A DNA stretch of 64,000 bases, taken from the NCBI RefSeq assembly GCF_030316845.1, contig NZ_JASZYS010000003.1, forward strand, positions 532,997 through 596,996, read 5' to 3'. Positions 25,142 to 59,682 of the stretch are shown one piece after another (within the stretch, counting starts at the first letter, position 1; every line of letters starts with the position of its first letter). The notes beneath the pieces are model-generated. The model did not search any database. It was given only the letters and a program-made list of their open reading frames with translations, and was not told where the DNA came from. Both the position numbers and the translations under genes were made by a program. This DNA comes from Variovorax davisae (lineage in GTDB: Bacteria; Pseudomonadota; Gammaproteobacteria; Burkholderiales; Burkholderiaceae_C).

Positions 25142-25497
25142 GTGTCCGCCAAGAAATAAGTGGGGTAGTGAATACTATGATCCTAGGCCCGATGGCGAGA
25201 ATCAAGATGAGTTGGCCCGACGCTTACCCTTTTTCGATGTTGGCGTCATGACCTATCGCCTGCAACAATCGCTCAGGGGCGACGATGAGTGCGGGCGGAG
25301 CTTAGGGCGAACAAAAGCCTTGGCCGCCAGCGAGCACTGATGTCGCAGCATTTCGTCAATGCATCGAACCGCCGTGACCAAGGCGGCTCGTGGAAACCGG
25401 AAGGGTGCTCGCCCTTCCGCAAGTACCGCCTGGTCAACGCACCACCAAGTCGATCTTGCGCGAAGAGCCACCCGGATCTCGCGCTTGGCCTAGCCAA
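25142..25497. other. 356-bp gap, no gene recognised
   Basis: It follows the upstream edge of the IS66 remnant. Several overlapping short frames exist on both strands but none resembles a known family or has a clear ribosome-binding site. It is probably debris of the same insertion events. Confidence 0.35.
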
Positions 25498-33046: not shown

Positions 33047-33550
33047 ATGCAAGACAAGGAGGCAGCCACCGTCAGTATTGGCGCATTGGCCGCCATCGCC
33101 ACCTACCTCACCGAAACAGCGGTCCTCGTACCTACCTGGGTGACTTTCATCGGCTGGACGTCGTTCTACGCGGTCGGGGCCGGCCCTGCCGGCTTCGTGC
33201 GCAGCGTCTTCGCGAACCTCGGTGGAGTAGTCATCGGCTCGATCACCCTCTTGGCCATGCACCTGGGCGCCAACAACGCGGTGCTGATCGCCCTGGCTGT
33301 CGGGGTCGGAAGTGCAATGGCCGTACAGGCCTCGAAGATGTCCGTGGTCGGTTCACTGCCGGCCATCTTCTTCGGCTTTTCCTGCACCGTTGGCACGGTC
33401 GCTGTGACGGGCAAGTCCATCGCCACGATTGGGATCGATAGTCCTGTGTTGGTGGCAGGCACCGCGCTTCTGCTTGGCAACGCCTTTGGCATCGTGTCCC
33501 AATGGCTTGCCGAGGCGCTGGGCGCCTCCAAAAACATCCGCGGTGGCTAA
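33047..33550 (+). CDS. DUF1097 family small membrane protein
   Basis: The 167-residue protein is made of about five hydrophobic helices (IGALAAIATYLTETAVLV, VVIGSITLLAMHLGANNAVL, LPAIFFGFSCTVGTVAV, LVAGTALLLGNAFGIVSQWL) with a WTSFYAVGAGPAGF loop, as in the DUF1097/YcdZ inner-membrane family. Function is unknown; its position between a reductase and a nitroreductase suggests a transport or tolerance role, which is only inference. Confidence 0.75.
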   Translation: MQDKEAATVSIGALAAIATYLTETAVLVPTWVTFIGWTSFYAVGAGPAGFVRSVFANLGGVVIGSITLLAMHLGANNAVLIALAVGVGSAMAVQASKMSVVGSLPAIFFGFSCTVGTVAVTGKSIATIGIDSPVLVAGTALLLGNAFGIVSQWLAEALGASKNIRGG

Positions 33551-33600
33551 ATGACGGCCAACTGCAACCTGATGCACGTAGTCTGAAGAGGCTCGCGAGA

Positions 33601-34311
33601 ATGATCCATAGCTCTACAGGATACGCAGCGCACGCTCCTGCCAAAGACGTCTCCGACGTCATGCGCTCACGTCGGACGGTACGCGCCTTCCGGGATCAGC
33701 CCGTCGCCAGGGAACTCATAGAGGAGGTCCTGAGGGATGCAGCGGCCGCTCCCAGCGGGGCCAACATGCAACCGTGGCGAGTGTATGTCGTTGCCGGGAC
33801 AGTGAAAGACATGCTGTGTGCGGCCGTGCTCGCGGCCGCGCGGGGCGGCAAGGGGCTTCCGCCCGCTCACCTCCCTGAACCGTTACCGGAAGTTTTCCGC
33901 AGCAGAATGGCTGACTTCGGAGCGCGGTACTACCGGTCACTTGGCATCGAACGCAGCGATGTCCAGGCACGCGCAGGGCAGACGGAGAGAAACTATTTTT
34001 TCTTCGGCGCCCCCGTGGGGCTCATCTTCAGCATCGACCGCAGGCTGAAACCGCACAGCTGGATCGATCTTGGCCTATTCGCCCAGGGCTTGATGCTCTC
34101 AGCCAAGGCCCGTGGGCTGGACACGTGTCCGCAAGTGTCGTTCGCCCCCTTTCACGAGGCGATCTCCTCGGTTCTGGGCATGCCTTCCGAAGAGGTGACG
34201 GTCTTCGGCATGTCCCTTGGGTACGGCGACCTGAATGCAGCAGTCAACCGCACCGAGATGCCCCGGCAGCCGCCCGAAAGCTTCGCCCGCCTGCTCGGCT
34301 TCCCCACATAG
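33601..34311 (+). CDS. Nitroreductase family protein (paralogue 1)
   Basis: From ATG 33601 the product is 236 residues. FMN-binding and dimer motifs are visible: RSRRTVRAFRDQPV, APSGANMQPWRVYVV, FFGAPVGLIFSIDRRL and GLDTCPQVSFAPFH. It closely resembles the PnbA-like protein at 42948-43658 and less closely that at 39417-40202. The family reduces nitro groups to hydroxylamines with NAD(P)H. It is followed at 100 bp by a Bug receptor gene, so uptake and reduction of one compound are probably linked. Confidence 0.9.
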   Translation: MIHSSTGYAAHAPAKDVSDVMRSRRTVRAFRDQPVARELIEEVLRDAAAAPSGANMQPWRVYVVAGTVKDMLCAAVLAAARGGKGLPPAHLPEPLPEVFRSRMADFGARYYRSLGIERSDVQARAGQTERNYFFFGAPVGLIFSIDRRLKPHSWIDLGLFAQGLMLSAKARGLDTCPQVSFAPFHEAISSVLGMPSEEVTVFGMSLGYGDLNAAVNRTEMPRQPPESFARLLGFPT

Positions 34312-34411
34312 CGATCTCTCTCCACTGCTATTCCCGTGTAGTCGCTGGTCGTCCGCAGTGGCGTACACAAGACCCCCAAATGTCCGGACTCGACCAAAAA
34401 TAGAGGATCAC

Positions 34412-35398
34412 ATGAATGATGTCTCCCGCCGCGATTTTGTGTCCATTTCCCTCGGAACCGCACTTGCTGGTTGGCTGGGATCTAGCCAGGCCCAGACGGG
34501 GCAGACGGGCAAGCTGCTGGTGGGCTACCCGGCGGGTGGCTCGTTGGACGTGACTGCGCGACAACTCGCAGAGGCGTGGCGCAAAGGTGGGCGCATCTAC
34601 ATCGTGGAGAACCGCGTGGGTGCCGGCGGAAGAATCGCGAACAGCCACCTCAAACGTGAGCGCGCGGATGGCAACACCCTTCTGGTCACGCACAGTTCTG
34701 CCCTGACCATCTATCCTCATGTCTACAGGCAGCTGATGTATGACGTGGTCGCTGATTTCGCGCCGATCTCGCCCCTCGCGTCCGCAACTCTCGCCTTTGC
34801 GGTGAGCAGCGCCATACCAGCCGACCGTGTGAAAACGCTGGACGACTACATCCGCTGGGTGCGGGCGAATCCCGAAGCAGCTAGCTACGCATCCCCGGCT
34901 GCAGGATCGTCTGCCCACCTACTTGGCTTTCAGCTGTCACAAGCGCACTCTTTGAATCTCCAGCACGTCGCCTATCGTGGTTCCGCACCGGCCATGCAGG
35001 ACTTGCTAGGCGGGCAGGTCCCCGCGTACTTCGGTCAGGTTCCCGATTTCATTCCGTACTTGCAAAAAGGCGGCATCCGGATATTGGGTGTGGCCGGCGA
35101 AAGACGATCCCGTTTCATGCCCGGAGTTCCAACCTTTGCTGAGCAGGGGTTGCCCTCTATGCGCCATATAGAGACTTACGGTGTCTTTGCTCCGCCGAGC
35201 ACACCTGATTCGACGATCAAAAAGTTGCAGGACGCTGTGCTCGAAGCGAGCGCGGACGCGCAGCTCAGGTCGGCCTTTGACCAACTGGGGCTGGAGGTGG
35301 TAACGTCAACTCCGAGCCAGTATGCAGTCGCGCTACGGCAGGAGCGCGACTCCTGGGCTCCGGTAGTGCGCGCCTCGGGATACCATCTCGAGGATTGA
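34412..35398 (+). CDS. Bug-family TTT substrate-binding protein (Tat-type leader)
   Basis: The 328-residue product starts at ATG 34412 after TAGAGGA. The leader SRRDFVSISLGTALAGWLG has a twin-arginine motif. Bug motifs GKLLVGYPAGGSLDVTARQL, GAGGRIANSHLKRERADG and VAYRGSAPAMQDLLGGQVPA follow. It is a paralogue of the Bug protein at 40204-41184; each stands next to a nitroreductase gene, suggesting duplicated receptor/reductase pairs. Confidence 0.88.
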   Translation: MNDVSRRDFVSISLGTALAGWLGSSQAQTGQTGKLLVGYPAGGSLDVTARQLAEAWRKGGRIYIVENRVGAGGRIANSHLKRERADGNTLLVTHSSALTIYPHVYRQLMYDVVADFAPISPLASATLAFAVSSAIPADRVKTLDDYIRWVRANPEAASYASPAAGSSAHLLGFQLSQAHSLNLQHVAYRGSAPAMQDLLGGQVPAYFGQVPDFIPYLQKGGIRILGVAGERRSRFMPGVPTFAEQGLPSMRHIETYGVFAPPSTPDSTIKKLQDAVLEASADAQLRSAFDQLGLEVVTSTPSQYAVALRQERDSWAPVVRASGYHLED

Positions 35399-35660
35399 AA
35401 AGCTGAACTCGGTGACCGCGCGACGGTGGGCGAAGCGCTGTTCCGCCCGGCTTTTGGCAGGTTAAGGGCAGGCCGCACCGGTGGCAGCGGCCGCCCCATC
35501 GCTAGGGGTGCGAGTCGCGTGGCTCGCGTTGCGCGTTGACGCCCTGTGCATCGCACGCAGACCCCGCCCCGCGCGCAGCCGCTAAGGAGTTCCACTCACG
35601 AGAATCCTCGGCGACCCGGACCTACTTTTGCTTGCGTCTTCTTGGTGTTCACAACGCGGA

Positions 35661-36566
35661 ATGTCACTCGATCTCAATCTGCTACGAGTAATTCTGGCGG
35701 TCTACGACCATGGCGGCATCGCAGCCGCGGCGCACGCACTTGATATGAGTCAACCCGGCTTGAGTGCGGCGCTGCAGCGAGCACGCACTGCGTTGAATGA
35801 TCCACTTTTCATCCGAGGATCCAAGAGGATGGAGGCCACCGAGCGAACTAGGCGGATGTTGCCATCGCTCAGGCTCATCATGGACATGGTGGACCGCGAT
35901 GTGGAGAGTGCCGCCGAATTCGATCCGGGCTCTTATCGCGGCGAGTTTAAGCTCGCTTTGACGGACGCGGGGGAGGCGATCCTACTCCCCTCGGTGTTGG
36001 TGGCGCTTGCCAAACACTGCCCCAATGCGGACATCCGATCGATGTCTTACACGCTCCCAGAACTCCAGAGCGCGATGGAAGAGGGTGCCGTTGACTTGGC
36101 TCTCGGCTTCTTCCCGGACCTGAGCTCCGTCAACTACTACAAGCAAGTCATCTCTACCCAGTCGTTCTGCTGCCTCATTTCTGCGGACCATCCCATTCGC
36201 GGCTCAACCATCTCCCGGGAAGAGTATTTCGCGGGTGATCATGTGCTGGTGGAGGGCCAGTCACCCAGCGAAGAGTTGCTCGAGACTTTTCTGGCGCGAC
36301 AACGTGCCCGCAGGAAGATCGTACTGCGCACCCCGCACTTCATGAGCGCTCCTGCGATCGTCGCGCGAACCCAGCTCATCGCCACCGTGCCCGACGGCGT
36401 TGCAAACATCGTCGCGATGATGAGCAATCCACGAATCGTCCGCACCGAATTCCACATGCCGCGGTTCGACACCTGCGTGTACTGGCACCCCAGCATGCAG
36501 GAGGATGCAAAGAACCGCTGGCTGCGGCGCACCTTGGTGGCCGAGTTACGTAGCAAGCTGTCCTAA
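35661..36566 (+). CDS. LysR-family regulator (NahR/DntR-like branch)
   Basis: The 301-residue protein starts MSLDLNLLRVILAVYDHGG at ATG 35661; the frame is open from a TTG at 35628 but the family begins at the ATG. It matches the LysR at 30352-31293 over its whole length, including MSQPGLSAALQRARTAL and the C-terminal HPSMQEDAKNRWLRRTL. It follows the nitroreductase/Bug pair and may regulate it. Confidence 0.9.
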   Translation: MSLDLNLLRVILAVYDHGGIAAAAHALDMSQPGLSAALQRARTALNDPLFIRGSKRMEATERTRRMLPSLRLIMDMVDRDVESAAEFDPGSYRGEFKLALTDAGEAILLPSVLVALAKHCPNADIRSMSYTLPELQSAMEEGAVDLALGFFPDLSSVNYYKQVISTQSFCCLISADHPIRGSTISREEYFAGDHVLVEGQSPSEELLETFLARQRARRKIVLRTPHFMSAPAIVARTQLIATVPDGVANIVAMMSNPRIVRTEFHMPRFDTCVYWHPSMQEDAKNRWLRRTLVAELRSKLS

Positions 36567-36875
36567 CCAGGATGTAGTGAGCGTTCCACTTCGCCTCGCC
36601 TGGGGCGGCGAGCCACGTGATCGTTTGGCAAGTGCCACCGGGCTGCGCGTCGTGGCGGCTTGCTCAAGGTCGTGGTCAGGAGCGCTGAGGTCAGCAGGGG
36701 GCTGCGGGTCTGTCGCATCACCTCCCACTTAGGCGCGTGCCGCATTGGGCTCGCGAGTAGGCGCGCCTCGCATACGACCGGCACTGTCCGCCCATTGCGA
36801 AGCCAGGGGATCGATGGCAAAGCGCGGTCAGACCGCGACAGAAGCGTCGCAGGCCGGGAAGCGCATTGAACGAAA
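36567..36875. other. 309-bp gap, nothing recognised
   Basis: Short frames on both strands have no family resemblance. The stretch ends where the first copy of the repeated promoter module begins. Confidence 0.35.
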
Positions 36876-36931
36876 TGCATCTACCGCGTGCAGAGACATC
36901 AGTTCCATCCACGTGCGCCGCGGGTCATCAT
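36876..36931 (+). promoter_or_regulatory. TGCA-N9-TGCA promoter module, copy 1
   Basis: TGCA at 36876 and again at 36889, then AGAnnTCAG, a -35-like TTCCAT (36903-36908), exactly 17 bp, and a -10-like CATCAT (36926-36931). The same 56-bp layout recurs at four more sites between 38.2 and 46.5 kb. It precedes the exported HD-domain gene by 40 bp. Confidence 0.75.
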
Positions 36932-36971
36932 TCGCGGCATGGAAAACGTGTCCGTCATACAAGGAACCGCC

Positions 36972-37745
36972 ATGAGGATAGGTGAAACTCTTCGCTGCAT
37001 CTCTATCTCTATCTCGCTCACGCTGGCCGCATGCATCGCGGCACCGAACGCTCATGCCCAGGCGGTCGCGCCACAACGGGACAGGGCCGTCCTGAACGAA
37101 CGCGATCCACTCTCCGACACGAGGATTCCCGACACCGCGTTGGCGCGCGACGCGGCGCAGGCCATCCGACAGGCGGAGGGTGAGCTCTTGTACGAGCACT
37201 CGATGCGGGTCTATTACTGGGCCGCCTTGGTCGCAAAGCGCAAGGGGCTGGCCATCGACCCCGAACTTCTCTACGTCGCTGCCATGTTCCACGATTACGG
37301 GCTGACGGCCGGCTATGGGGAGAGCCATCTCCGCTTCGAGGTGGATGGCGCCAACGCTGCACGGGAGTTCCTGCGCAGCCACGGCAGGCCTGAGGCGGAA
37401 GCCCAGAGAGTCTGGCTTTCGATCGCACTGCATACGACGAATGGCATCTCTCGCCATCTCGATCCCATCGCACAGATTCTGGCTGAGGGTGCCAACATGG
37501 ACCTCGTCGGGGCAGGCTTTGGCGACTTCACGAGCGCGCAGCGGCGCGCGGTCGAGGCTGCCCACCCGCGTCCGCCATCGTTCGCGGACGACTTCCTGCG
37601 CGACGTATACGAAAGCCTGAAGCACCGCCCGGAGACCACGCAGGGCACCGGCCTGGCGGACGTCATTGCGTCCCGGGATCCTGCTTTCCGGCGCAGGGAC
37701 TTCAGCAGCCTGGTGCGCCAGTCGCCCTGGGCCAGCGGGAAATAG
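36972..37745 (+). CDS. HD-domain protein with signal peptide or lipobox
   Basis: The 257-residue protein starts at ATG 36972 after AAGGAA. The leader (ISISLTLAACIAAPNAHAQ) offers a lipobox LAAC (18-21) and a signal peptidase I site at AHA-Q. The HD domain shows HSMRVYYWA and AAMFHDYGLT and continues FEVDGANAAREFLRSHG and ALHTTNGI, resembling cyanamide-hydratase-like HD proteins. A cytoplasmic paralogue without leader lies at 38370-39014. Export of an HD hydrolase is unusual; its substrate is unknown. It is driven by module copy 1. Confidence 0.82.
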   Translation: MRIGETLRCISISISLTLAACIAAPNAHAQAVAPQRDRAVLNERDPLSDTRIPDTALARDAAQAIRQAEGELLYEHSMRVYYWAALVAKRKGLAIDPELLYVAAMFHDYGLTAGYGESHLRFEVDGANAAREFLRSHGRPEAEAQRVWLSIALHTTNGISRHLDPIAQILAEGANMDLVGAGFGDFTSAQRRAVEAAHPRPPSFADDFLRDVYESLKHRPETTQGTGLADVIASRDPAFRRRDFSSLVRQSPWASGK

Positions 37746-37879
37746 CGGGAGCAGGCGGGAAGGCGGAAGCCTCCCGTCTCACGATCGCGCGCCAGGGCGC
37801 GTAGCAGCCGATGCGGGTTGCATTGGGCGCGATCGTGTGCGTCTCCTCGGCCTGACGCGGATCGCGATCCCGGGGTATG

Positions 37880-38213
37880 GCCGATATGCGGCGATGAAAT
37901 CGACCGTGGAACGCTCGTGCGCGACTGGGCCAGGGAGCTCGGCCCGCGCTGAATCCGCGTGAACGCGATCGCACCCGGCCCCATCGCCACCGACTTCAGC
38001 CGCGAGGTGTACGAAGCCAACCCGCAGTTGCTGATCAAGATCGCCCAGAACACCGCACTCGGAAGGCTGGGGCAGGCGGAGGACATCGGCCCGGTCATCG
38101 CATTTCTCTGCTCGGAGGCGGCTGCATGGGTCAACGTACGGCGGCTGGGTGCCAGCGGCGGGCAGATGATCCGACGCACGCGCGTCTGGAGTGACTTTCC
38201 GTCGTGCCGGTGA
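37880..38213 (+). pseudogene. Short-chain dehydrogenase remnant
   Basis: The catalytic YAAMKSTVE segment (YxxxK) is visible near 37885 but the frame then shifts, and a TGA interrupts LGPR-IRVNAIAPGPI. The downstream frame (37959-38213) encodes the SDR C-terminal region, NAIAPGPIATDFSREVYEAN and GRLGQAEDIGPVIAFLCSEA. The N-terminal Rossmann half is missing. It lies between the two HD paralogues. Confidence 0.7.
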
Positions 38214-38224
38214 CTTGAGCCGCA

Positions 38225-38280
38225 TGCAAGTTGTCCTTGCACAGAGTTCAGTTCCATTCCGTCCCCCGGCAGCTGATGAT
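38225..38280 (+). promoter_or_regulatory. TGCA-N9-TGCA promoter module, copy 2
   Basis: TGCA at 38225 and 38238, AGAGTTCAG, -35-like TTCCAT (38252-38257), 17 bp, -10-like GATGAT (38275-38280). It lies 89 bp before the second HD-domain gene. Confidence 0.75.
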
Positions 38281-38369
38281 GACGCCATCGCGGTGCCGCG
38301 CAATCCGCATTGGCGAGCTGCAACGGCAAGACGTCCCACTGCCACCATTACCACCCGTCGAGGAAAGTT

Positions 38370-39014
38370 ATGACGCCCAAAGAAGTTTCCGGAGTACGCA
38401 TCCCCGATAGCCAGCTCGCCCGCGAGCTGACAGAGTTCGTTCGCGACACCGAGAGCGACCTGCTCTACAACCACTCCCTGCGCTGCTACTGCTGGGGCTG
38501 CCTCGCAGGGCGTCGCAAAGGGCTGAAGTACGACGCCGAACTGCTCTACGCCGCCTCGATGTTCCACGACATCGGCCTGACGGCTAGGTACGAGAACAGT
38601 CAGCTTCGCTTTGAAGTGGACGGCGCGAACGCGGCGGGTGATTTCCTCCGGAGCCATGGCATTTCTGAAACGGACATCGAGGCGGTCTGGAACGCCGTGG
38701 CCCTCCACACTACCCCCGGCATCCCGCAGTTCATGCGGGCGGAGATCGCCCTCGTCCAGGCGGCCGCGGGCATGGACGTTGCCGGTCGGGGCTACGACGA
38801 GTTCACGGACGCGGAACGCCAGGCGGTCCTTGCCGCTTTTCCACGCGAAGTCGACTTCAAGACCGGAATCATCGATGCCTTCTACGAAGGCATGAAGCAC
38901 CGCCCCGCCAGCACCGTCGGCACCTTCAATGACGACTTCCTCGCGCACAAGGACCCGCACTTCCAGCGGGTCGATATGTGCACAGTCATCCACGCGTCGA
39001 AGTGGCAGGGATGA
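38370..39014 (+). CDS. HD-domain protein, cytoplasmic paralogue
   Basis: The 214-residue protein starts at ATG 38370 after CGAGGAAAG and lacks a signal peptide. Its HD domain (LYNHSLRCYCWGCLAGRRKG, AASMFHDIGLTARYE, FEVDGANAAGDFLRSHG, ALHTTPGI) aligns throughout with the exported paralogue upstream. The family includes cyanamide hydratase-like enzymes that act on small nitrogen compounds, which would suit a nitroaromatic island, but the substrate is unproven. It is preceded by module copy 2. Confidence 0.82.
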   Translation: MTPKEVSGVRIPDSQLARELTEFVRDTESDLLYNHSLRCYCWGCLAGRRKGLKYDAELLYAASMFHDIGLTARYENSQLRFEVDGANAAGDFLRSHGISETDIEAVWNAVALHTTPGIPQFMRAEIALVQAAAGMDVAGRGYDEFTDAERQAVLAAFPREVDFKTGIIDAFYEGMKHRPASTVGTFNDDFLAHKDPHFQRVDMCTVIHASKWQG

Positions 39015-39063
39015 TGCGGTTGCAGCTTCAGGAGCGCCTGCTGGCGTTCTCTTGAGGTGAGGA

Positions 39064-39471
39064 ATGGACCGACTGCAGTCCTTGCCCGTGGCGAGAGAAC
39101 TGGTCATGGTTCCTGAAGCGCCAAGGCGGGCAGAGCCAGTTCAGCGTGCACCTCGCGGCACAGCCGCGGAGAAGTCGGACATCCGCAATGTGCAGGATCA
39201 TGTCGTGTCCCAACTGAAGGCCGCCCTGTCAGTGCCCCGGCTCGCCGCGCGCGTGCGCATGAGCCAACGCAATTTCGCGCGCGTGTTCCGCGACGGGACG
39301 GGATGACGCCGGAGCGGTTCGTCGAGAAGGCGCGCCGGCTCAAGGACTAGGATGCCCATCGATGCGGCTGGCGACGAAGGTCGGCTACGCGAACGTGGAG
39401 GCCTTCCGCCGCACGTTCATTTGGCGGCCCGGGGTGAGTCCACGTGAGGATCGGAAACAGTTTGTGGACTG
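39064..39471 (+). pseudogene. Remnant of a GlxA-type AraC-family regulator
   Basis: The segment encodes the linker and C-terminal AraC helix-turn-helix of a GlxA-like protein in shifted frames: VARELVMVPEAP, VQDHVVSQLKAALSVPRLA, MSQRNFARVFRDGTG, then GMTPERFVEKARRLKD with a stop, then TKVGYANVEAFRRTF. The order and wording match the intact regulator at 47288-48241. The amidotransferase-like half is absent. Its 3' end overlaps the C-terminal codons of the minus-strand nitroreductase. Confidence 0.75.
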
Positions 39472-40202
39472 AGCACAGTCGCCGCGCGCGCAGGTGGGGC
39501 AGGCTCGAAGCCGACGAACTGCGCGAACTCGCGCGCACCCTGTCGCGGCATGCGGACCTGGTTCACCGCCGCGGCCGTTTCGGCGAAGCCCATGGACATG
39601 CCGCAGGCGGTCAGGTGGTCTGGGGACATGCCCAGGCGGGAAGCGATCACAGGATGGAAGCGTGCGAACGACACCTGCGGGCACGTGGCGATGCCGCGTG
39701 CCCCGGCGGCGATCATCACGTTCTGCACGAACAGCCCCACGTCGAGCCAGCTGTGTGCCGTCAGGCGCCGGTCAATGCTGAAGAGCAGGCCGACCGGCGC
39801 GCCGAAGAAGTGGAAGTTCTTCTCGGTCTGTCCGGAGCGCGCGTCGGCGTCGTGCCGGTCGATTCCGAGACAGCCATAGTACCGCGTCGCGAAGTCCGCC
39901 TGTCGTTCGCCGAATTCCGGGGGCAGCGGATCCGGGAAATGGGGTGACGGGGGCAGGCTTCCTTCCCGGAAGCTCGCTACCAGCGCGTCGCCCAACTCGC
40001 GCAGGGCGGCGCCCGCAAGCACGTGCACGCGCCAAGGCTGCGTGTTCGAATTGCTGGGCGCCGTCGCGGCGGCGTCGAGGATCTCGAGCACCGTCTCTGC
40101 TGGGAGCGGGTCCGGTCGGTACGCGCGCGTGGACCGGCGTGACTGCAGCACCCGGTCGACACAGCGCGCAATTTCCGCCTGAGTGCAGTTAGCCGTGTCC
40201 AT
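39417..40202 (-). CDS. Nitroreductase family protein (paralogue 2)
   Basis: The 261-residue protein starts at ATG 40202, whose T lies just one base from the stop of the upstream Bug gene. Motifs are RSTRAYRPDPLP, APSNSNTQPWRVHVL, FFGAPVGLLFSIDRRL and GIATCPQVSFARFHP. The usual C-terminus is followed by about 25 extra residues (PAPPARAATVLSPQTVSDPH) that overlap the AraC remnant, probably a read-through into decayed DNA. It forms an operon with the Bug receptor under module copy 3. Confidence 0.88.
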   Translation of the reverse strand: MDTANCTQAEIARCVDRVLQSRRSTRAYRPDPLPAETVLEILDAAATAPSNSNTQPWRVHVLAGAALRELGDALVASFREGSLPPSPHFPDPLPPEFGERQADFATRYYGCLGIDRHDADARSGQTEKNFHFFGAPVGLLFSIDRRLTAHSWLDVGLFVQNVMIAAGARGIATCPQVSFARFHPVIASRLGMSPDHLTACGMSMGFAETAAAVNQVRMPRQGAREFAQFVGFEPAPPARAATVLSPQTVSDPHVDSPRAAK

Positions 40203-40203
40203 G

Positions 40204-41184
40204 TCAGTCCTCGGAGCGGAACCCGGAAGCCTGCACGATGGGACGCCAGAATTCCCGCTGGGCCTGCAGCTGCTTCGCATACTCGCCGGGCGGAAGGGTC
40301 AGCGTCTCCAGGCCGACCTTCTCGAAGGCCGAGCGCAGCGCTGGATCCTTGGCTGCGGCAACGATGGATGCATGCACCGCCTGCACGGTCGACTCGGGGG
40401 TCCCGGGTGGCGCGAAGACCCCATAGTTCTCCACCCCGAGAACCTTAGAGTATCCCTGCTCGATGAAGGTGGGTACCGTGGGCAGAAAGGCGGAGCGCTT
40501 CTCGCCGGAGACACCCAGGATCCTGAGCTTGCCTTGTTGCAGGTAAGGCAGGAAGTCGGCGACGAACCCGAAGTACGCCGGGATCTGCCCACCGATCAGG
40601 TCCTGAATCGCCGGTGCGGATCCGCGATAGCCCACGTGTTGCAGCTTCAGTCCCGCGGTGTCGGAGAGCTGGTATCCGAGGAAATGCGCAAAGGAGCCGG
40701 CCGCGGGCGACGCATAGGTGGCGGAGCTCGGCGTGCGACGCACCCATTCGACATACGTCTGCAGGTCATGTACGCTGGCCGGCGTAGCGCTGCTCACGGC
40801 AAACGCACAGGTCGCGGCGACCACTGGCGACACCGGCACCAAGTCTGCCGCTGGATCGTACGCGAGCCGTGCATAGACGTGCGGGTAGATCGTGAGCGCG
40901 GATGCGTGCGTGCACAGGAGCACACTGCCGTCCGCTCGCTCACGTTTCAACTGGCTGTTGGCGATGCGGCCGGCGGCCCCCGCACGGTTGTCCACGATGT
41001 ACTGGCGCCCCTGCTTGCGCCAGGCCTCCGTCAGGTGGCGTGCCGTCGTGTCGAGAGTTCCCCCCGGGGGATAGCCGACGACCAGCTTGCCCACGCCCGT
41101 CTGGGACAACGCCGGCGGTAGCCAGCCCGCGGCCGGCACGGCCAGGGCGATGCGCGCAAAAGCGCGCCGATTGATTGCGTCCAT
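40204..41184 (-). CDS. Bug-family TTT substrate-binding protein
   Basis: The 326-residue product starts at ATG 41184. The leader has RRAFARIALAVPAAGWLPPALSQ, a Tat-like RR followed by a hydrophobic stretch. Motifs KLVVGYPPGGTLDTTARHL, GAAGRIANSQLKRERADG and VGYRGSAPAIQDLIGGQIPA match the paralogue at 34412-35398. Close coupling to a nitroreductase gene suggests that the receptor captures a nitroaromatic acid. Transcription is expected from module copy 3. Confidence 0.88.
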   Translation of the reverse strand: MDAINRRAFARIALAVPAAGWLPPALSQTGVGKLVVGYPPGGTLDTTARHLTEAWRKQGRQYIVDNRAGAAGRIANSQLKRERADGSVLLCTHASALTIYPHVYARLAYDPAADLVPVSPVVAATCAFAVSSATPASVHDLQTYVEWVRRTPSSATYASPAAGSFAHFLGYQLSDTAGLKLQHVGYRGSAPAIQDLIGGQIPAYFGFVADFLPYLQQGKLRILGVSGEKRSAFLPTVPTFIEQGYSKVLGVENYGVFAPPGTPESTVQAVHASIVAAAKDPALRSAFEKVGLETLTLPPGEYAKQLQAQREFWRPIVQASGFRSED

Positions 41185-41221
41185 TCCGCACCTCGCTTCG
41201 CTAAATGATTGGTATGACCGA

Positions 41222-41277
41222 ATCATGGTCGGCTGGCGCGCGAGTTGGAACTGAAGTCTTTGCATGGGCAAAGTGCA
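41222..41277 (-). promoter_or_regulatory. TGCA-N9-TGCA promoter module, copy 3
   Basis: Read on the minus strand: TGCA twice spaced by 9 bp, AGACTTCAG, -35-like TTCCAA (41245-41250), 17 bp, -10-like CATGAT (41222-41227). It is 38 bp before the Bug/nitroreductase operon. Confidence 0.75.
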
Positions 41278-41304
41278 TGCCATTCAACTTGCCCGTTTGC
41301 GCCG

Positions 41305-42285
41305 CTAACCGAGCGCGTCCTCGGCGACACGTGCCATTGCGGCCACCGCTTCGCGCAGCCAGACATGGCCCTCGTCGTGTTCGTCGCGGCGGTGCCAGAC
41401 CGCCCGAATTGTGGACGTTCCTGCCTGATAAGGGGGTTGCCGTCGCAGCAGGTCGCTGTTCTTCGCCAGTGCCATGGCAAGCGAGGCGGGCACGATGGAC
41501 AACATCTCGGTCTCGCGCAGCAGGGCGGGGATGGCCAGCGAGTGTGGAACTGTCACGCGCGCGCGCGGGACTTTCTGTGCCGTAAGCAGCGCCTCCTCCA
41601 GCGCGTGGCGGTCGAACATCTCGGACTGCCGCGCAAGGCCACGCTCCAGAATGAAGCCGCCCACCGCGCCTTCTTCCTCGCCCCCAACCGAAAGCGTGAC
41701 CAGCGGGAACTTCGCCATGTCCTGGAGCGTGAGCTTGCGGCGCGAAGCAGGATGCCCATTTCGCATCAGGATCGCTTCGCCCTGCGACATGAGCGTGCGG
41801 GAGTTCAGCCGGCCAGGCACCTGCGAGAAGATGCCGATGGCCAGATCGATGCGGCGCAGGTCAATCTGCTCCGCGAGGTCGAGCCGGGTGAAAGGACGGA
41901 TGACGAGGTCCACGCCCGGTGCCGAGCGCTGCAACTCGCGCGAGAGCGGTGCGACGATGACTGTCGTCAGGTGGTCATTCGCGGCGATGACGAAACGCCG
42001 CGTCGACTGTTGCGGAGAGAACGGCTCGACGCCCAGTGTGGCCTCGATCCGCCGCAGCGAGTCGCGCAAGGCAGGGGCCATCGCCGCGGCACGGCCGGTA
42101 GGGACCATGCCTTTCCCCGTGCGCATGAAGAGCTCGTCCCCCACCAGTTCACGAAGCCTGGCGAGGGCATGGCTTACCGCTGACTGCGATATGTGCAGCC
42201 GCTTGCCTGCGAGGACCAGGTTGCGTTCCTCGTACACGGCATCGAAGACCTTGAGCAGGTTGAGGTCTGTCCGGCCGATGCCCAT
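41305..42285 (-). CDS. LysR-family regulator, PnbR-like
   Basis: The 326-residue protein starts MGIGRTDLNLLKVFDAVYEE at ATG 42285 after GGAGTACGAAG. The helix-turn-helix HISQSAVSHALARLRELVGDELF and the C-terminal VWHRRDEHDEGHVWLRE are clear. It is divergent from the PnbB/PnbA-like genes, as pnbR accompanies the 4-nitrobenzoate genes in Pseudomonas putida TW3, and it lies between promoter module copies 3 and 4. It is therefore the best candidate for the activator that recognises TGCA-N9-TGCA. Confidence 0.85.
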   Translation of the reverse strand: MGIGRTDLNLLKVFDAVYEERNLVLAGKRLHISQSAVSHALARLRELVGDELFMRTGKGMVPTGRAAAMAPALRDSLRRIEATLGVEPFSPQQSTRRFVIAANDHLTTVIVAPLSRELQRSAPGVDLVIRPFTRLDLAEQIDLRRIDLAIGIFSQVPGRLNSRTLMSQGEAILMRNGHPASRRKLTLQDMAKFPLVTLSVGGEEEGAVGGFILERGLARQSEMFDRHALEEALLTAQKVPRARVTVPHSLAIPALLRETEMLSIVPASLAMALAKNSDLLRRQPPYQAGTSTIRAVWHRRDEHDEGHVWLREAVAAMARVAEDALG

Positions 42286-42311
42286 CTTCGTACTCCAGCT
42301 AATGAACGGCA

Positions 42312-42367
42312 TGCATTATGGACTTGCAGAGAGATCAGTTCCATCTCCGGGGAGTCTCGCCCATCAT
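42312..42367 (+). promoter_or_regulatory. TGCA-N9-TGCA promoter module, copy 4
   Basis: TGCA at 42312 and 42325, AGAGATCAG, -35-like TTCCAT (42339-42344), 17 bp, -10-like CATCAT (42362-42367). It starts 27 bp from the divergent LysR start and ends 29 bp before the PnbB-like gene. Confidence 0.8.
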
Positions 42368-42395
42368 CGCAACCAGCCAACCAGGAGCTCGCACG

Positions 42396-42944
42396 ATGAT
42401 TACCGAAACACTCATACAAGACCGAGAGGCCTTGATCGACCACTGCATCCCCTTCCTCGAGGAAGTGAAGGACATGACGGCGAGCACCGAGGTCGAACGC
42501 TGGCTGAACCGGAAGTACGGGCCGGACAGCGAGCTGTACCAGACGCTCGCGAGCCTCGTGAAGAAGGGTGTGGAAGACGGCTGGGCGGCGAATGTGGAGA
42601 TCGACGGCCCGCACTACCGTCGCAGCCGCATCGCCGAACCTTCGGACAATACCGTCCACTTCAGCATCACTGCGGTGTACATGGATAGCACGGGGAACGA
42701 GCAGGGCCATCCCGACCACCGGTTCCGCGGCCAATACCATGGCCACCCTTACGGCGAATTCAACATGGTTGTGCCCGTCACGCCCGGTGCAGCCTTGAAC
42801 GGTCCGAACGGCTGGTGCTTCGGCGGGTGGACCGCGCCCTCGCCCGGCAGCCAGCACTATCCCGAAGCGAAGGGAGGCGCCGTCATCGCGCTCTTCTTCC
42901 TGCCTTCGGGCCGGATTTCGTATCACGCCGCGCCGCAGGAGTGA
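42396..42944 (+). CDS. pnbB: PnbB-like 4-hydroxylaminobenzoate lyase (DUF4863 family)
   Basis: The 182-residue protein has a helical N-terminus (WLNRKYGPDSELYQTLASLV) and a cupin-like C-terminal half with FRGQYHGHPYGEFNMVVPV, NGWCFGGWTAPSPGSQHYPE and GGAVIALFFLPSGRISYH. I recognise it as the PnbB/DUF4863 family, whose known member converts 4-hydroxylaminobenzoate to protocatechuate and ammonia. The nitroreductase gene 3 bp downstream and the divergent PnbR-like LysR support this. The identification is from pattern memory and context only. Confidence 0.68.
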   Translation: MITETLIQDREALIDHCIPFLEEVKDMTASTEVERWLNRKYGPDSELYQTLASLVKKGVEDGWAANVEIDGPHYRRSRIAEPSDNTVHFSITAVYMDSTGNEQGHPDHRFRGQYHGHPYGEFNMVVPVTPGAALNGPNGWCFGGWTAPSPGSQHYPEAKGGAVIALFFLPSGRISYHAAPQE

Positions 42945-42947
42945 GCC

Positions 42948-43658
42948 ATGACCACGAACCCTCGTGAATGGGCCCAGGAGGCCGTCGCGCAATGTGTGGC
43001 GAGCGTCGTGCGCTCCCGCCGGGCGGTGCGCGCCTTCAAACAGAAACCGCTCGAACGCAAGCTGTTGGAGGAGATTTTGTCGGACGCGGCCACCGCGCCG
43101 AGCGGCGCCAACATCCAACCCTGGCGGGTGTATGTCGTGACCGGAGCGGCCAAGGAGGAATTGGCTGCGGCGCTGGTCGCGGCGTCGCGGTCCGGGACGA
43201 CTCCCGCGCCCGCACACTTCCCCGAGCCGCTGCCCGAGGTGTTCCGCGCCAGGTTGCAGGACTTCGGCGCTCGGTACTACGCATCCCTGGGTATCGAACG
43301 CAGCGACGCGGCGGCACGCACCCGCCAGTCCGAACGGAATTTCTCTTTCTTCGGCGCGCCAGTCGGCCTCCTTTTCAGTGTCGACCGCCGCCTGAAGCCG
43401 CACAGCTGGATCGATCTCGGTCTCTTCGCGCAGAACCTGATGATCTCTGCCAAGGCGCGGGGCATCGACACTTGTCCGCAGGTCTCTTTCGCCCCATTCC
43501 ACGACGTGATCGCCTCGCATGTCGGGATGGCACCTGAGGAAGTGACGGCTTTCGGCATGTCCATGGGCTACGGCGACCCCGATGCACCCGTTAACCAAAC
43601 GGCGATGTCGCGCGAGCGCGTGCAGGATTTCGCTCGCATGGTCGGCTTTCCCGAATGA
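42948..43658 (+). CDS. pnbA: Nitroreductase, PnbA-like (paralogue 3)
   Basis: The 236-residue protein begins 3 bp after the PnbB-like stop. Motifs are RSRRAVRAFKQKPL, APSGANIQPWRVYVV, FFGAPVGLLFSVDRRLKPHS and GIDTCPQVSFAPFHD. With PnbB it would form the two-step route nitrobenzoate to hydroxylaminobenzoate to a catechol plus ammonia. It is almost the same length and wording as paralogue 1 at 33601-34311. The ring position of the nitro group cannot be read from sequence. Confidence 0.85.
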   Translation: MTTNPREWAQEAVAQCVASVVRSRRAVRAFKQKPLERKLLEEILSDAATAPSGANIQPWRVYVVTGAAKEELAAALVAASRSGTTPAPAHFPEPLPEVFRARLQDFGARYYASLGIERSDAAARTRQSERNFSFFGAPVGLLFSVDRRLKPHSWIDLGLFAQNLMISAKARGIDTCPQVSFAPFHDVIASHVGMAPEEVTAFGMSMGYGDPDAPVNQTAMSRERVQDFARMVGFPE

Positions 43659-43674
43659 ACCTAGGAGAACTCAC

Positions 43675-44118
43675 TTGAAGAACACACTGCTCGCCTGCGT
43701 CGTGGCGGTCACGATGGGCGCACTTGGCCCCGCTTCCGTCTCGGCCCATGAGACGACCGAGAAGGTCACCCCCGCATTCCGGCAAGCCATCCCCAACATT
43801 CCCGGAAAGTCGCTCATCTCAGTCGTCGTGGACTACGCGCCCGGCGCTGCATCGCGTCCGCACGTGCATGCGAAGTCCGCGTTCATCTACGCGTACGTGC
43901 TTTCTGGCGCAATCGAATCTCGGATCGACGACGGCCCTGTGCAGGTCCTGCATGCGGGGGAAAGCTTTTATGAGCCCCCGGGCGCAAGACACGTCGTAAG
44001 CCGCAACGCGAGCAAGACCGAGCCTGCCAGGTTGCTCGCCGTCTTCGTGCTGGACACCGGGGACACCCCTCTCACTACTCCCACTACCTCAACCGAATCT
44101 TCGAGGAACAAGCCATGA
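43675..44118 (+). CDS. Secreted single-domain cupin
   Basis: The start is TTG 43675, five bases after TAGGAGAA; no ATG fits. The 147-residue product has a signal peptide (LACVVAVTMGALGPASVSA, cut before HET). The cupin strand motifs PHVHAKSAFIYAYVLSGAIE and AGESFYEPPGARHVVSRN carry the metal-binding His/Glu set. The Thr/Ser-rich tail is disordered. It lies between pnbA-like and CMD genes with a 4-bp overlap to the latter. A second cupin with a membrane anchor ends the Rieske operon at 62537-63106. Confidence 0.82.
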   Translation: MKNTLLACVVAVTMGALGPASVSAHETTEKVTPAFRQAIPNIPGKSLISVVVDYAPGAASRPHVHAKSAFIYAYVLSGAIESRIDDGPVQVLHAGESFYEPPGARHVVSRNASKTEPARLLAVFVLDTGDTPLTTPTTSTESSRNKP

Positions 44119-44570
44119 CCATGCGTCTCGACTACAACCAACTCGCTCCCGCTGGCGCTAAGGCTCTCGGCACCCTCTATGGCTACGTCGCGCAGAGCGG
44201 TCTCTCGCCCGCCGTCGTGGACCTCGTCTACTTGCGCGTGTCCCAGATCAACAACTGCGCGTTCTGCCTGGACATGCACACGCGCGACTTGTTGAAGAAG
44301 GACTTGCCGATCGAGAAACTCGCGCTACTGCAGGCATGGCGGGAGGCCGGCGATCTCTTTGACCCGCGGGAGCGGGCCGCACTCGCCTGGGCAGAGTCGG
44401 TGACTCGCGTCGCCGACACCGCCGTGCCGGATGAAGACTACGAAGCCGCGCGCGACGTCTTCGCCGAGAAGGAATTGGTGGACCTCACCCTGGCAATCGG
44501 GCTGATGAACACCTACAACCGTATGGCGATCAGCTTCCGCAACACGCCGCAGGCCGTCCTGAAGAAGTAG
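44115..44570 (+). CDS. Carboxymuconolactone decarboxylase / AhpD-like protein
   Basis: The 151-residue protein has the AhpD-type CxxC motif NNCAFCLDMHTRD (Cys-x-x-Cys with downstream His) and the helical VDLTLAIGLMNTYNRMAISF tail. Members are peroxidase-like antioxidant proteins or, without CxxC, decarboxylases; the CxxC favours the redox type. It overlaps the cupin gene by 4 bp and is part of the PnbB/PnbA-like operon. A role in coping with reactive hydroxylamine or nitroso intermediates is inference. Confidence 0.88.
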   Translation: MTMRLDYNQLAPAGAKALGTLYGYVAQSGLSPAVVDLVYLRVSQINNCAFCLDMHTRDLLKKDLPIEKLALLQAWREAGDLFDPRERAALAWAESVTRVADTAVPDEDYEAARDVFAEKELVDLTLAIGLMNTYNRMAISFRNTPQAVLKK

Positions 44571-44614
44571 ACCTTCGGGCTCGATCCGAGCCAATTCACC
44601 CGCATTTCTTCGTC

Positions 44615-44641
44615 GCACCGTTGCCGATCCGGCAATGGTGC
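44615..44641 (+). terminator. Strong hairpin between CMD and wrbA genes
   Basis: GCACCGTTGCCG, loop ATC, CGGCAATGGTGC form a 12-bp stem with one G-U pair in RNA. No T-run follows, so it may be an attenuator, RNA-stabilising element or factor-assisted terminator rather than a simple intrinsic terminator. It would lower read-through into wrbA. Confidence 0.45.
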
Positions 44642-44705
44642 CGCCGTGTGGCGGCCAATACTTTGGTGGCCTTTCCCAACGAATCACCGAATACCTGAAA
44701 TCAAA

Positions 44706-45308
44706 ATGGCAAAAGTCCTCGTCCTGTACCACAGCTTCTACGGCCATATCGAGACCATGGCGGCAGCCGTTGCGCGCGGCGCGCGCAGCGTTCCCGAGAC
44801 CGTAGTGGACTTGAAGCGGGTGCCCGAAACGGTGCCCCCGGACGTGTTCCGCGGAGCGGGTGGCAAGGCCGACCAGGCCGCCGCGCTCGCGAAGCCCGAA
44901 GAACTCGCGAACTACGACGCGATCGTCTTCGGCGCTCCCACCCGCTTCGGCAACGTCAGCGCTCAGATGCGCACCTTCATCGACCAGACTGGACCGCTAT
45001 GGATGAGTGGTGCACTCGTTGGAAAGGTAGGGTCCGTGTTCACCTCCTCGGCAACCCAGCACGGCGGCCAGGAGAGCACCATCCTCACGTTCCTTCCGAC
45101 CCTGCTGCACCATGGCATGGTCGTGGTAGGCCTGCCTTATGCGGAGAGGCGCCAGATGGGCATCGACGAGATCAAAGGCGGCAGCCCGTACGGGGCGGCA
45201 ACTATCGCCGGTGGCCAGGGCGAGCGCATGCCCAGCGAGCAGGAGCTGGGCATGGCGGAGTTCCAGGGCCGTCACGTCGCCACGATCGCGACTAAGCTCC
45301 ACGGCTGA
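44706..45308 (+). CDS. wrbA: NAD(P)H:quinone oxidoreductase, WrbA type
   Basis: The 200-residue flavodoxin-like protein has the FMN loop [48 protein letters not shown] and [13 protein letters not shown], all diagnostic of WrbA. It reduces quinones by two electrons. Quinones arise from catechol autoxidation, so its place after the nitroaromatic genes is sensible. The frame is open upstream but ATG 44706 starts the family. Confidence 0.93.
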
Positions 45309-45794
45309 AGCACGCGCCGATCCTGTCGGAAGGTGCGGGCGGCGATCGGGGAAAAAGACGGTGCGCCGGCGGCATTGCATCCTGGATGCAGTCTCGAAGA
45401 CTCGAGGCTTGGCTACCGTTCGGTGGGATGCGGAGGGCGCCCCGCAGGCACTGCGCTCCGCGCCATTTGACATCGTGCTGGTCCGCATGCGCACAGCATC
45501 GTCGAGGTTGCGAAGCTGCTGCAAAGGCTTCTCTGCAAGGACCGGGAGGACTCCCATCCCGACCCTCAGCCACAAGCTTCACAACGAGAACGCCGCATGA
45601 AGGACACGAAGCCCTATACCGAACTCCGCACTCGCTCGCTCACCTCGATCCACTATCGCAACGAGAGCTTGGTCGAGGACAACCTATTGCAACTCAACAC
45701 CTAGACTAGGGGATTCCCCGTCAATTTGATCAGTAGGCCGAGTCTGCATCGTTGCATGGTGGCGGACGTGCAGCCCATTGAAGGACGTTCGCGG
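45309..45794. other. 486-bp gap with decayed frames
   Basis: A plus-strand frame around 45360-45600 (RSAPFDIVLVRM) faintly recalls a response-regulator receiver strand, and a 35-codon frame starts at ATG 45597 (MKDTKPYTELRTRS). Neither is complete or convincing. I see no repeat or RNA gene. Confidence 0.3.
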
Positions 45795-46034
45795 CTAGAG
45801 CCCAAGTTCTTCCATCAGAGACGGCCGGTGATGCTCCCAAGGACGTGCGCGCTCGAAAGCACGTGACGCCTTCAGAACAAGCCTGTCATCGAGATGGCGG
45901 CCAACAATCTGAAGTCCCACTGGGAGGCCATCGCGGGTAAAGCCCGCAGGTACCGACGCGGCGGGAGGATCAATCCGCATTCGCGCAACGGACACTAGGC
46001 CAGGCAAATTCGCGTCCGAGCATGGCCCGCGCAT
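45795..46034 (-). pseudogene. C-terminal remnant of an amidase-signature enzyme
   Basis: The frame reads SVPAGFTRDGLPVGLQIVG and RHLDDRLVLKASRAFERARP, the conserved C-terminal region of amidase-signature hydrolases. The catalytic Ser-Ser-Lys region is missing and the upstream minus-strand frames (NGLVNLDAMPTRTRNNYLY near 46050) are shifted. An intact amidase with different sequence lies at 50486-51925. Promoter module copy 5 lies upstream on the same strand. Confidence 0.72.
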
Positions 46035-46408
46035 ATAGATAATTGTTTCGGGTACGCGTGGGCATGGCGTCCAGATTCACCAAACCGTTTTCGTCGGAGG
46101 GAAACGCGAGCGCCCTCCCAGAATGGGACAGGGCTTCGAAGTGCAAGAAAAAGAACGCTCTTGGTGCGGCTTCCGCCGCTGGAGAACGGGATTGGTCCGC
46201 CCGAACGGATCGCGGTGATTCATGAAGCGAGGCATGCATCATGCAGCTCCTGCTTTAGCCGTGCAGCGCCGTCCGCACGAATGTCAAAGAAGAGGGATCG
46301 TCCGGCGCGTACGATCCAAACGGAGACCAGGGTCTGAGGGGAGTTCCTTGACGAGACGATGAGAGGTGCGATGCAACGGGCTCACCACGCGCGGCGGCCA
46401 TCTCGCCG

Positions 46409-46464
46409 ATGATCCGCAAAGATCAAGTTGAATGGAACTGAACTCTGTGCTCCATTTAGATTGA
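46409..46464 (-). promoter_or_regulatory. TGCA-type promoter module, copy 5 (degenerate)
   Basis: On the minus strand AGAGTTCAG and -35-like TTCCAT (46432-46437), 17 bp and -10-like GATCAT (46409-46414) match the other copies exactly in layout. The two TGCA boxes have decayed to TCAA and AGCA. It points toward the amidase remnant, which fits loss of function of both. Confidence 0.6.
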
Positions 46465-46471
46465 ACATCAT

Positions 46472-47161
46472 TCATTGCTCATAGAAGCGGTCGTCCAGGA
46501 GCAGGTCCTCGAAGAACGCGCCGAATCGACGCTCCGCCGGATCGCGCAAATGGATCTCAAGCACCCACCGCGAGGGTGACGGCGAGAACGCGGCCTGCGC
46601 CAGCGAACCTGTGTGAATCGCCGCATGAGGGAAGTCGGACAGACGGTGGCCAGGCAGATCGAAATTCAACTCCCAGCCCATTTGCCTCGCGCGCTGGTCG
46701 GCGTATTCGTAGAGACGGGTGCCAGTCCAGTCGTGTCGACGCCACGCTTCGCGGACCTCGTGGAACAGCTCCTCCGCGTTGCGTGCGCAGCGCTCCAGTT
46801 GCTCGTCGTGTCCGACCACAAAGGTCGCGCCGCCGTCTCCTTCCCACGCTTCATAGCGAGGAGCGATGTCCACAAAGAAGATGTCGTTCTCTTTCAGGAC
46901 CACACCGGGCACGGAAGGCTGTTTCATCGCCTTGATGGTGTTAATGCCGAATCGCACGCGCACCGGGTGCCATGTCGCACGCAGACCCAACTTTGCGAGC
47001 ACGCTCTTCGCGAGTTCCACCGCGTCTTCCTCGAGCATCCCCGGGCGCACTGCTTCAGCAATTTGCTGGATTGCTGTACGGGTGAACTGGCGTGCAGCGA
47101 GCATCCCGTCTTCGGAAAATGCGCTTCCAACGCGCTCTGCCTCAAGTATTGATGCGTTCAT
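46472..47161 (-). CDS. M24-family metallopeptidase-like protein (Xaa-Pro aminopeptidase fold)
   Basis: The 229-residue pita-bread-fold protein has metal ligands in FVDIAPRYEAWEGDGGATF (two Asp), HRLSDFPHAAIHTG (His) and WVLEIHLRD (Glu), with a final Glu in the tail FFEDLLLDD. It lacks the N-terminal creatinase-like domain, so it is a short M24 hydrolase. It is divergent from the GlxA-type regulator across tandem 17-bp repeats and is probably its target. The true substrate may be a dipeptide or another small amide. Confidence 0.82.
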   Translation of the reverse strand: MNASILEAERVGSAFSEDGMLAARQFTRTAIQQIAEAVRPGMLEEDAVELAKSVLAKLGLRATWHPVRVRFGINTIKAMKQPSVPGVVLKENDIFFVDIAPRYEAWEGDGGATFVVGHDEQLERCARNAEELFHEVREAWRRHDWTGTRLYEYADQRARQMGWELNFDLPGHRLSDFPHAAIHTGSLAQAAFSPSPSRWVLEIHLRDPAERRFGAFFEDLLLDDRFYEQ

Positions 47162-48413: not shown

Positions 48414-49353
48414 CTACTTGCCGGTTTGCCTGTTTGTTAGCGGCTCCCGTCGCACGGTGGAAGGCATGAGTTTGGCCACGGTCTGGCGAAGCCAGATGTT
48501 TGCGGGGTCCCGATGAAATCGCGAATGCCAGTGCTGCTTGATGACATATCGCGGCGAGGGAAACGGGAGGCGGTACACCTTGATGGATTCCCGCCGCTGG
48601 GTTAAGAGCGCGTAATGCGTCGGAACCATCGCAAGCAGATCGGTTTCGCTCACGATCTGGGCGACCGCCAGGAAGCTCGGTACCTGGAGCGCGACCTGAC
48701 GCACGATGCCCTCCGCACGGATCGCGTTCTGTATGACCCCGGTATGCCCCGTACCCTCTGTCAGGACCTCGATATGACGTTCGGCGCTGTACATCTGATC
48801 CGTCAAACGCCGTCGTAGCCGCGGATGGGATGCAGCCGCGATGCATCGGAAATCCTGCTCGACCAGGGACTGTTGATAGAAGCCAGCATCAAGCTGAGGC
48901 ATGTAGCCGACTGCAAGGTCGACGAGCCCTTCCTCCAGCCTGCGCCTGCTTTCACTCCCAATGCGTTCCGCGTCGATCCGCACGCCTGGGGGCGGATGAC
49001 TGCAGGGTGTTCAGAAGAGCAGGGAGGAGAGAGGTCTCTCCAAGATCAGTCATGCAGATCCGAAAGGCCCGTCGCGAAGTGGAAGGGTCGAAGCCGTTGT
49101 TCCCGGTTAGCGTGCCCTCCAGGCTCTCCCTGATTTGACGAAGCACGGGTTGAAGCTCATCCGCCCGAGGCGTTGCCAGCATTCCGCGGGACGTTCGGGT
49201 GAACAGAGGGTCGCCGTAGAAACCCCGAAGTCGATTCAGCGCCGTGCTGGCAGCGCCCTGTGTCAAACCTAGTCGTTCGGCGGCCTTCGTCACGCTCGAT
49301 GCTTTGTACACCTCATCGAAAACGGCGATCCATTCGAGGTCAAGTGCGGCCAT
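48414..49353 (-). pseudogene. LysR-family regulator with a single-base frameshift
   Basis: The N-terminal part from ATG 49353 (LDLEWIAVFDEVYKASSVTKA, LTQGAASTALNRLRGFYGD) runs to about 48990 and the C-terminal part (RIDAERIGSESRRRLEEGLV to the stop at 48414) is in another frame. Removing the T at 48987 on the plus strand restores SAPGVRIDAERI. Either a recent mutation or a sequencing error explains it. The protein would be about 310 residues and of the NahR/DntR-like branch. It is divergent from the Bug gene that follows. Confidence 0.82.
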
Positions 49354-49476
49354 TTCAGAGCTCCGAGGTATCAAGAATTTCGATAGATGGTATCCGGGCC
49401 GCGTGTTGCCGAAGCCGTTTGCTGCGGACAAGAATCTCTCCGAGACATTCACCTAATCACAACCAGGAGTCACTCC

Positions 49477-59569: not shown

Positions 59570-59610
59570 GGCAGAAACGCCAAATCGTTGAAGGGAAATC
59601 CTTCTGTAAC

Positions 59611-59639: not shown

Positions 59640-59682
59640 TGTGCATCTCTCACCCAACTCGTCAATCAAGCAGAGGCAACCC

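Follow-up and report, generated by a model that had tools for sequence, protein, structure and literature searches.

We identified a 65-bp module, consisting of an operator followed by a promoter-like part, that occurs five times within approximately 10 kb of a 64-kb stretch of the genome of the soil bacterium Variovorax davisae (contig NZ_JASZYS010000003.1, positions 532,997 to 596,996). This whole stretch of analyzed DNA is referred to here as the window. Four of the copies are intact and one is altered. A previous sequence-only reading of the window had described five such stretches, all of which read as described at the positions and on the strands it reported. It had also assigned them a single shared layout. 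The core and the 17-bp spacing of that layout stand, but the module begins 9 bp earlier, with TGAA or TGAG at alignment positions -8 to -5, and the -35-like hexamer of module 3 is TTCCAA rather than TTCCAT. The five copies are as follows.

Module 1, 36867..36931 (+): operator 36867-36901; -35-like 36903-36908; -10-like 36926-36931; before HD1
Module 2, 38216..38280 (+): operator 38216-38250; -35-like 38252-38257; -10-like 38275-38280; before HD2
Module 3, 41222..41286 (-): operator 41252-41286; -35-like 41245-41250 (TTCCAA); -10-like 41222-41227; before Bug1 and the nitroreductase
Module 4, 42303..42367 (+): operator 42303-42337; -35-like 42339-42344; -10-like 42362-42367; before PnbB and the genes after it
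Module 5, altered, 46409..46474 (-): box 1 46462-46474, TGAATGATGTTCA; box 2 46439-46451, AGCACAGAGTTCA; -35-like 46432-46437; -10-like 46409-46414

The genes of the predicted regulon, including that of its proposed activator, are listed below. ORF denotes an open reading frame.

LysR1, 41305..42285 (-): PnbR-like LysR-type regulator, proposed activator (PF00126, PF03466); tracks the module
HD1, 36972..37745 (+): HD-domain protein with a signal-peptide-like start (PF01966)
HD2, 38370..39014 (+): HD-domain protein (PF01966); weak TIGR03401 similarity
Bug1, 40204..41184 (-): TctC-family periplasmic receptor (PF03401)
NTR1, 39417..40280 (-): nitroreductase-family ORF, start approximate (PF00881)
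PnbB-like, 42396..42944 (+): 4-hydroxylaminobenzoate lyase family by its Pfam name (PF16155, E 8e-61)
PnbA-like, 42948..43658 (+): nitroreductase (PF00881)
Cupin, 43582-44118 (+): PF07883; same gene run as PnbB
CMD-family, 44115-44570 (+): PF02627; same gene run as PnbB
Flavodoxin-like, 44706-45308 (+): PF03358; same gene run as PnbB

The LysR1 gene is located between modules 3 and 4, where the sequence-only reading had placed a PnbR-like regulator. A PnbB-family lyase and a nitroreductase adjoin it, so that a pnb-type neighborhood is present. The closest solved LysR-type proteins to LysR1 by sequence are PDB entries 1utb, 1uth and 2uyf (E about 7e-33), which we take to be DntR. For the HD proteins, the similarity to the cyanamide hydratase family TIGR03401 falls below the cut-off.

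The core of the module, AGANNTCAGTTCCA, occurs exactly five times in the window compared with 0.01 occurrences expected, and none of 100 shuffles reached five. When three mismatches are allowed the number of core matches in the window is not above chance (28 compared with 31.5 expected), and therefore the signal is carried by the exact copies only. The full layout together with the upstream TGA gives four window sites with no mismatches and none in shuffled sequence; module 1 has no mismatches to the 65-bp layout. The top matrix score in the window belongs to module 4, which lies 17 bp from the LysR1 start codon on the opposite strand. A search with the two-TGCA pattern recovers the four intact sites, the fifth at three mismatches, and one doubtful three-mismatch site at 25333-25363 (-), whose operator-matrix score is -3.0 compared with 35 to 52 for the intact copies. 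The 7.18-Mb genome contains one further exact core, which lies inside an ORF and has neither the TGCA pair nor a -10 element. No RNA family or tRNA was found in the window, and the module was not found in viral contigs.

Structure of the operator

Gathering modules in the window, across the genus and in named genomes yielded 61 distinct cores. Two that occurred only off-lineage were dropped, and a 90% identity filter left 52 copies. The collection was pattern-based, and conservation within the pattern letters is therefore partly by construction. However, the TGAA half-site lies outside the collecting pattern and is exempt from this effect.

The operator derived from the 52 non-redundant copies is TGAA-N5-TGCA-N9-TGCA-N5-(A/T)TCA, followed by TTCCA(T), 17 bp and sATsAT. 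A 5-bp spacer separates the TGAA half-site from the first TGCA. Position -8 is T and position -7 is G in 51/52 copies, and the four positions from -8 to -5 read TGAA in 36, TGCA in 10 and TGAG in five. All four intact window copies have TGAA or TGAG as the first half, a -35-like TTCCA(T/A), and sATsAT 17 bp further on. A T-N11-A signature occurs in box 1 in 51/52 copies and in box 2 in 48/52, the two boxes being 22 bp apart, and the inner halves are TGCA in 49/52 and 44/52, respectively. The highest dyad scores are those of the center of the whole operator (0.46) and of box 1 (0.42). Additionally, 29/52 copies have TTCA at positions 33-36, ten bases below the (A/T)TCA of box 2 and overlapping the end of the -35 element.

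The sequence-only reading had proposed TGCA-N9-TGCA as the activator box. The pair is indeed present, but it represents the inner halves of two boxes; the TGAA half-site was overlooked, and the pair was consequently mistaken for one box. As read from the aligned copies, the layout of half-sites is a tandem LysR-type operator geometry, as in known LysR-type operators. The columns of the module are constant across genera, and there is little or no conservation upstream of -14 or downstream of about +68.

Genes downstream of the module

A recognized same-strand gene follows in 44/52 copies, with its start 22-166 bp further down (median 38). These genes encode Bug receptors (13), PnbB (12), HD2 (6), PnbA (5), MFS carriers (4), HD1 (2), a small ORF (1) and a flavodoxin-like protein (1). 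Among the other eight, six also have a recognized same-strand gene whose start was mis-mapped (three cupin genes, PnbA, the small ORF, and an AraC ORF that follows the module at position 2335 of locus L082). At position 3880 of the same locus, the module is followed by a short ORF whose start resembles a signal peptide. Families that recur downstream of the module are PnbB, nitroreductase, Bug receptor, HD, cupin and MFS. Gene order varies among genomes, and the module stays with its gene. Modules at L115:6453, L131:6173, L132:11965 and L136:5876 precede a carrier gene whose sequence suggests an MFS transporter.

The HD genes provide a control, for which only 30 of the HD matches had their loci scored. 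HD2 orthologues have an operator scoring at least 32 in 12/15 loci, some of these operators being that of the first gene of the operon. Two orthologue loci (L203 and L205) are operons with the module further upstream, and a third (L198) belongs to a genome that is 58% complete and has no LysR match. HD paralogues (52-57% identity), which serve as the negative control, have the operator in 0/15 loci, with a best score of 7.0.

Association with LysR1

The distribution of the module was compared with that of LysR1 in 101 genomes of the genus, using E <= 1e-60 as the cut-off for LysR1 and up to two mismatches for the module. LysR1 is present in 33 genomes, which form one clade of 17 (at least 71% identity) and a second of 16 (58-61%). 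Modules are found in 23 genomes: 16/17 of the first clade, 7/16 of the second, and 0/68 of those without LysR1. Fisher tests give 3e-15 for all genomes and 2.5e-6 when the second clade is compared with the 68 genomes without LysR1, although these values are overstated because the genomes are related. The sequence-only reading had inferred one shared regulator, with the LysR at 41305-42285 as the best candidate, and had suggested a scan of related genomes as a check. The scan supports this proposal: all 23 genomes with modules are among the 33 bearing this LysR, and the module tracks LysR1 rather than LysR0, a second LysR-type regulator encoded at 35628-36566 just upstream of module 1.

The 52-copy training set contains no site from the LysR region of any second-clade genome. 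Nevertheless, the best matrix site of the locus is upstream of LysR in all 16 genomes of this clade, at 40-44 bp in 15 and at 92 bp in one where the start is uncertain. Plasmid loci were chosen as the best 11 of 1266 matching records by LysR similarity; the top two are part of the training set and the other nine (H3-H11) were tested. In eight of these nine the best site outscores all 30 shuffles and lies next to LysR or PnbB. Nearly all of the aligned LysR proteins have the recognition-helix stretch QSA(V/I)SHAL in common.

In two more distant loci, L223 and L224 (LysR identity 39% and 37%), there is no PnbB in the 10.9-kb stretch, and a four-half-site operator lies just after the LysR gene. 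These operators (L223:5982-6016 and L224:6041-6075) belong to LysR relatives in Ensifer and Azospirillum, and in Azospirillum a DUF3141 gene is adjacent. As the operator occurs there without a nearby PnbB, the LysR subfamily probably has other regulons besides the PnbB-linked one.

The scan of named genomes returned 22 module loci. Four of these (L063, L066, L074 and L076) are off-lineage with operator scores of at most 7.2, and were attributed to chance. In the family scan 6/299 genomes match, four of them outside the genus. Among those four L027 has the module before PnbB, and L025, L026 and L028, with scores of at most 7.6, were likewise taken as chance. A lone three-mismatch match with a low operator score in a further genome (G314) was also rejected.

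The altered fifth copy and neighboring genes

Two features follow module 5.

Small ORF, 45973..46242 (-): 89 aa, conserved, directly downstream of module 5
Amidase remnant, 45798-46076 (-): end of PF01425 only, beyond the small ORF

The sequence-only reading had held that the fifth copy merely lost its TGCA boxes and fronts a dead gene, a view that our analysis does not support. In module 5 a related first box, TGAATGATGTTCA, is still present, displaced by 1 bp; it starts within the stop codon of an M24 peptidase ORF. The full 65-bp matrix gives module 5 a score of 23.6, compared with at most -18.7 in three shuffled windows; the copy drops out of the operator matrix because of the shift in the first box. 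The small ORF, not the amidase remnant, comes first after the module. The 89-aa small ORF has 18 homologues (51-76% identity) but no Pfam match, and in Ramlibacter alkalitolerans (L072) one homologue immediately follows a module. A close relative (G313) has a 501-aa amidase open frame and approximately 3.7 kb of extra sequence at the position of the remnant. The window sequence is broken near 45954-45965, leaving only the end of the amidase gene. The broken amidase is therefore a separate loss further down.

Several other features were noted around the region. A second set of nitroreductase, Bug and LysR genes lies beside the regulon at 33502-36566 (+), and the matrix finds no operator before it. 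A LysR gene at 48414-49452 (-) is split over two overlapping ORFs, one carrying the HTH and the other the ligand domain, possibly through a frameshift. The region is flanked by two Rieske oxygenases, at 28953-30311 and 59497-60906 (+), whose C-terminal domain is LigXa-like.

Proposed mechanism and alternative explanations

Because the control stretch recurs beside one kind of LysR gene in many relatives, it is likely a docking site for the encoded protein. The sequence comparisons lend good support to a shared LysR regulon. We further consider it probable that the module combines a LysR-type operator with a weak promoter, through which LysR1 would activate five transcription units belonging to a predicted set for nitroaromatic catabolism. 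From the PnbB and nitroreductase families, the inducer is probably an aromatic nitro- or hydroxylamino-acid.

The transcript is predicted to start approximately 7 bp after the -10-like hexamer, which would place the centers of the two boxes near -65 and -43. A LysR1 tetramer may then bind with one dimer on the -65 box (recognition) and one on the -43 box (activation), beside a poor -35 element. No consensus sigma-70 promoter was found in 36500-46700, as expected for an activator-dependent promoter, so polymerase would need an activator. The TTCA one helical turn below box 2 may be the inducer-free site of the second dimer, covering the -35 element, and an aromatic ligand would shift this dimer up to the -43 box. 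Binding at module 4, so close to the LysR1 start codon, would also restrain LysR expression.

Several observations weigh against this interpretation. The dyad score of box 2 (0.34) is not outstanding compared with unrelated centers (0.34 and 0.37). The module at L138 has no fitting downstream gene, and 9/16 second-clade genomes lack any module apart from the LysR operator. One plasmid locus (L024), in which the LysR frame looks damaged, shows no operator, and at L221 the operator score reaches just 9.8, where shuffles reach 6.7 at most. The genomes of the genus are non-independent. Additionally, PnbB is present in 34 of them, 33 of which have LysR1, and with such near-perfect co-occurrence the presence and absence counts alone cannot separate the two. 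However, the second-clade sites, the plasmid sites and the loci lacking PnbB (L223 and L224) point to LysR rather than PnbB as the partner of the module.

The most serious alternative is a genuine operator at which LysR1 acts chiefly as a repressor, with the ligand doing no more than releasing it. Activation and repression cannot be told apart from sequence alone, and the TTCA found in 29/52 copies would set a dimer over the -35 element. However, the predicted box positions match those reported for LysR-type activators and no consensus promoter was found, and we regard repression as unlikely. It is far less probable that LysR0 is the regulator. Although it adjoins module 1 in the window, in G313 and in Ramlibacter, it is near-identical only in its own genome and G313, and it is absent from the other annotated module loci. 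Modules occur in only three of the seven genomes with a LysR0 match, and 20/23 module genomes have no such match.

Use of the sites by a BoxR/BzdR-type protein that binds TGCA repeats, or by MetR, is equally improbable. BoxR and BzdR bind TGCA repeats and have a PF16155 gene in their regulon, and the MetR half-sites (TGAA-N5-TTCA) and their spacing resemble those of the module. However, the BoxR/BzdR repeats are spaced by 1, 6 or 15 nt (PMC6449761), compared with 5 and 9 in the module, and the sites follow the LysR1 lineage (BoxR and MetR genes were not searched for). Least credible of all is a spreading repeat or a set of recent duplications without a regulatory role, which would account for five copies in 10 kb and for recurrence with genes in varying order but not for conservation that is confined to the module, fixed across genera, and followed in 44/52 copies by a recognized same-strand gene.

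The module would provide an exact and portable operator, TGAA-N5-TGCA-N9-TGCA-N5-ATCA, with a fixed promoter, for a LysR subfamily whose published site we did not find. The operator would read out pathway membership, since common control would link the PnbB-type lyase and the nitroreductases with HD-domain enzymes, a Bug receptor, MFS carriers and a small orphan protein. It would also predict which genomes run the pathway, and could serve as a biosensor part once the inducer is known. A wider proposal is tentative, and we lean slightly against it: that this is a previously undescribed LysR regulon, with an operator shared by Burkholderiales and lineages as far away as Alphaproteobacteria, assembled by placing one transferable 65-bp operator-promoter set before interchangeable catabolic genes; that the TTCA is a parking site for a sliding dimer; and that the regulon members, the HD enzymes and the small orphan protein among them, define a nitro- or hydroxylamino-aromatic route wider than the known 4-nitrobenzoate route.

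Comparison with known systems

No description of this operator was found in the open-license literature, although most subscription papers lie outside it and this is weak evidence of absence. A published PnbR binding site was likewise not found in the literature searched.

The genes pnbA, pnbB and pnbR of 4-nitrobenzoate metabolism are named together (PMC9302171). In the window PnbB, nitroreductase and LysR genes are likewise neighbors, but here several further units share the operator. The likeness of DntR-type LysR regulators to LysR1 is a distant one, at the level of protein sequence. BoxR and BzdR, too, act on TGCA repeats, and their regulon includes a PF16155 gene. However, in addition to their different spacings, they belong to the HTH-XRE regulator family.

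LysR recognition boxes are placed around -65, and a sliding-dimer model has been described (PMC8407307). OxyR boxes are located at -66, -44 and -35 (PMC5002191). The nod box resembles the module in that one LysR-type protein acts through a long conserved box before several operons. This 47-bp box contains palindromic ATC-N9-GAT halves 9 bp apart (PMC5596368). Its letters differ, however, and the 9-bp gap lies within one box of the nod box but between the two boxes here.

Among the operators compared, that of MetR is the closest in letters and spacing. In the metE/metR region of enterobacteria, MetR has two tandem inverted repeats with TGAA-N5-TTCA halves centered at -63 and -41 (PMC5002191, PMC13393422). 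As in the module, the boxes are 22 bp apart and the regulator gene is divergent. The present system differs from MetR in its TGCA inner halves, in its PnbR-like regulator and in the several catabolic units that it would control.

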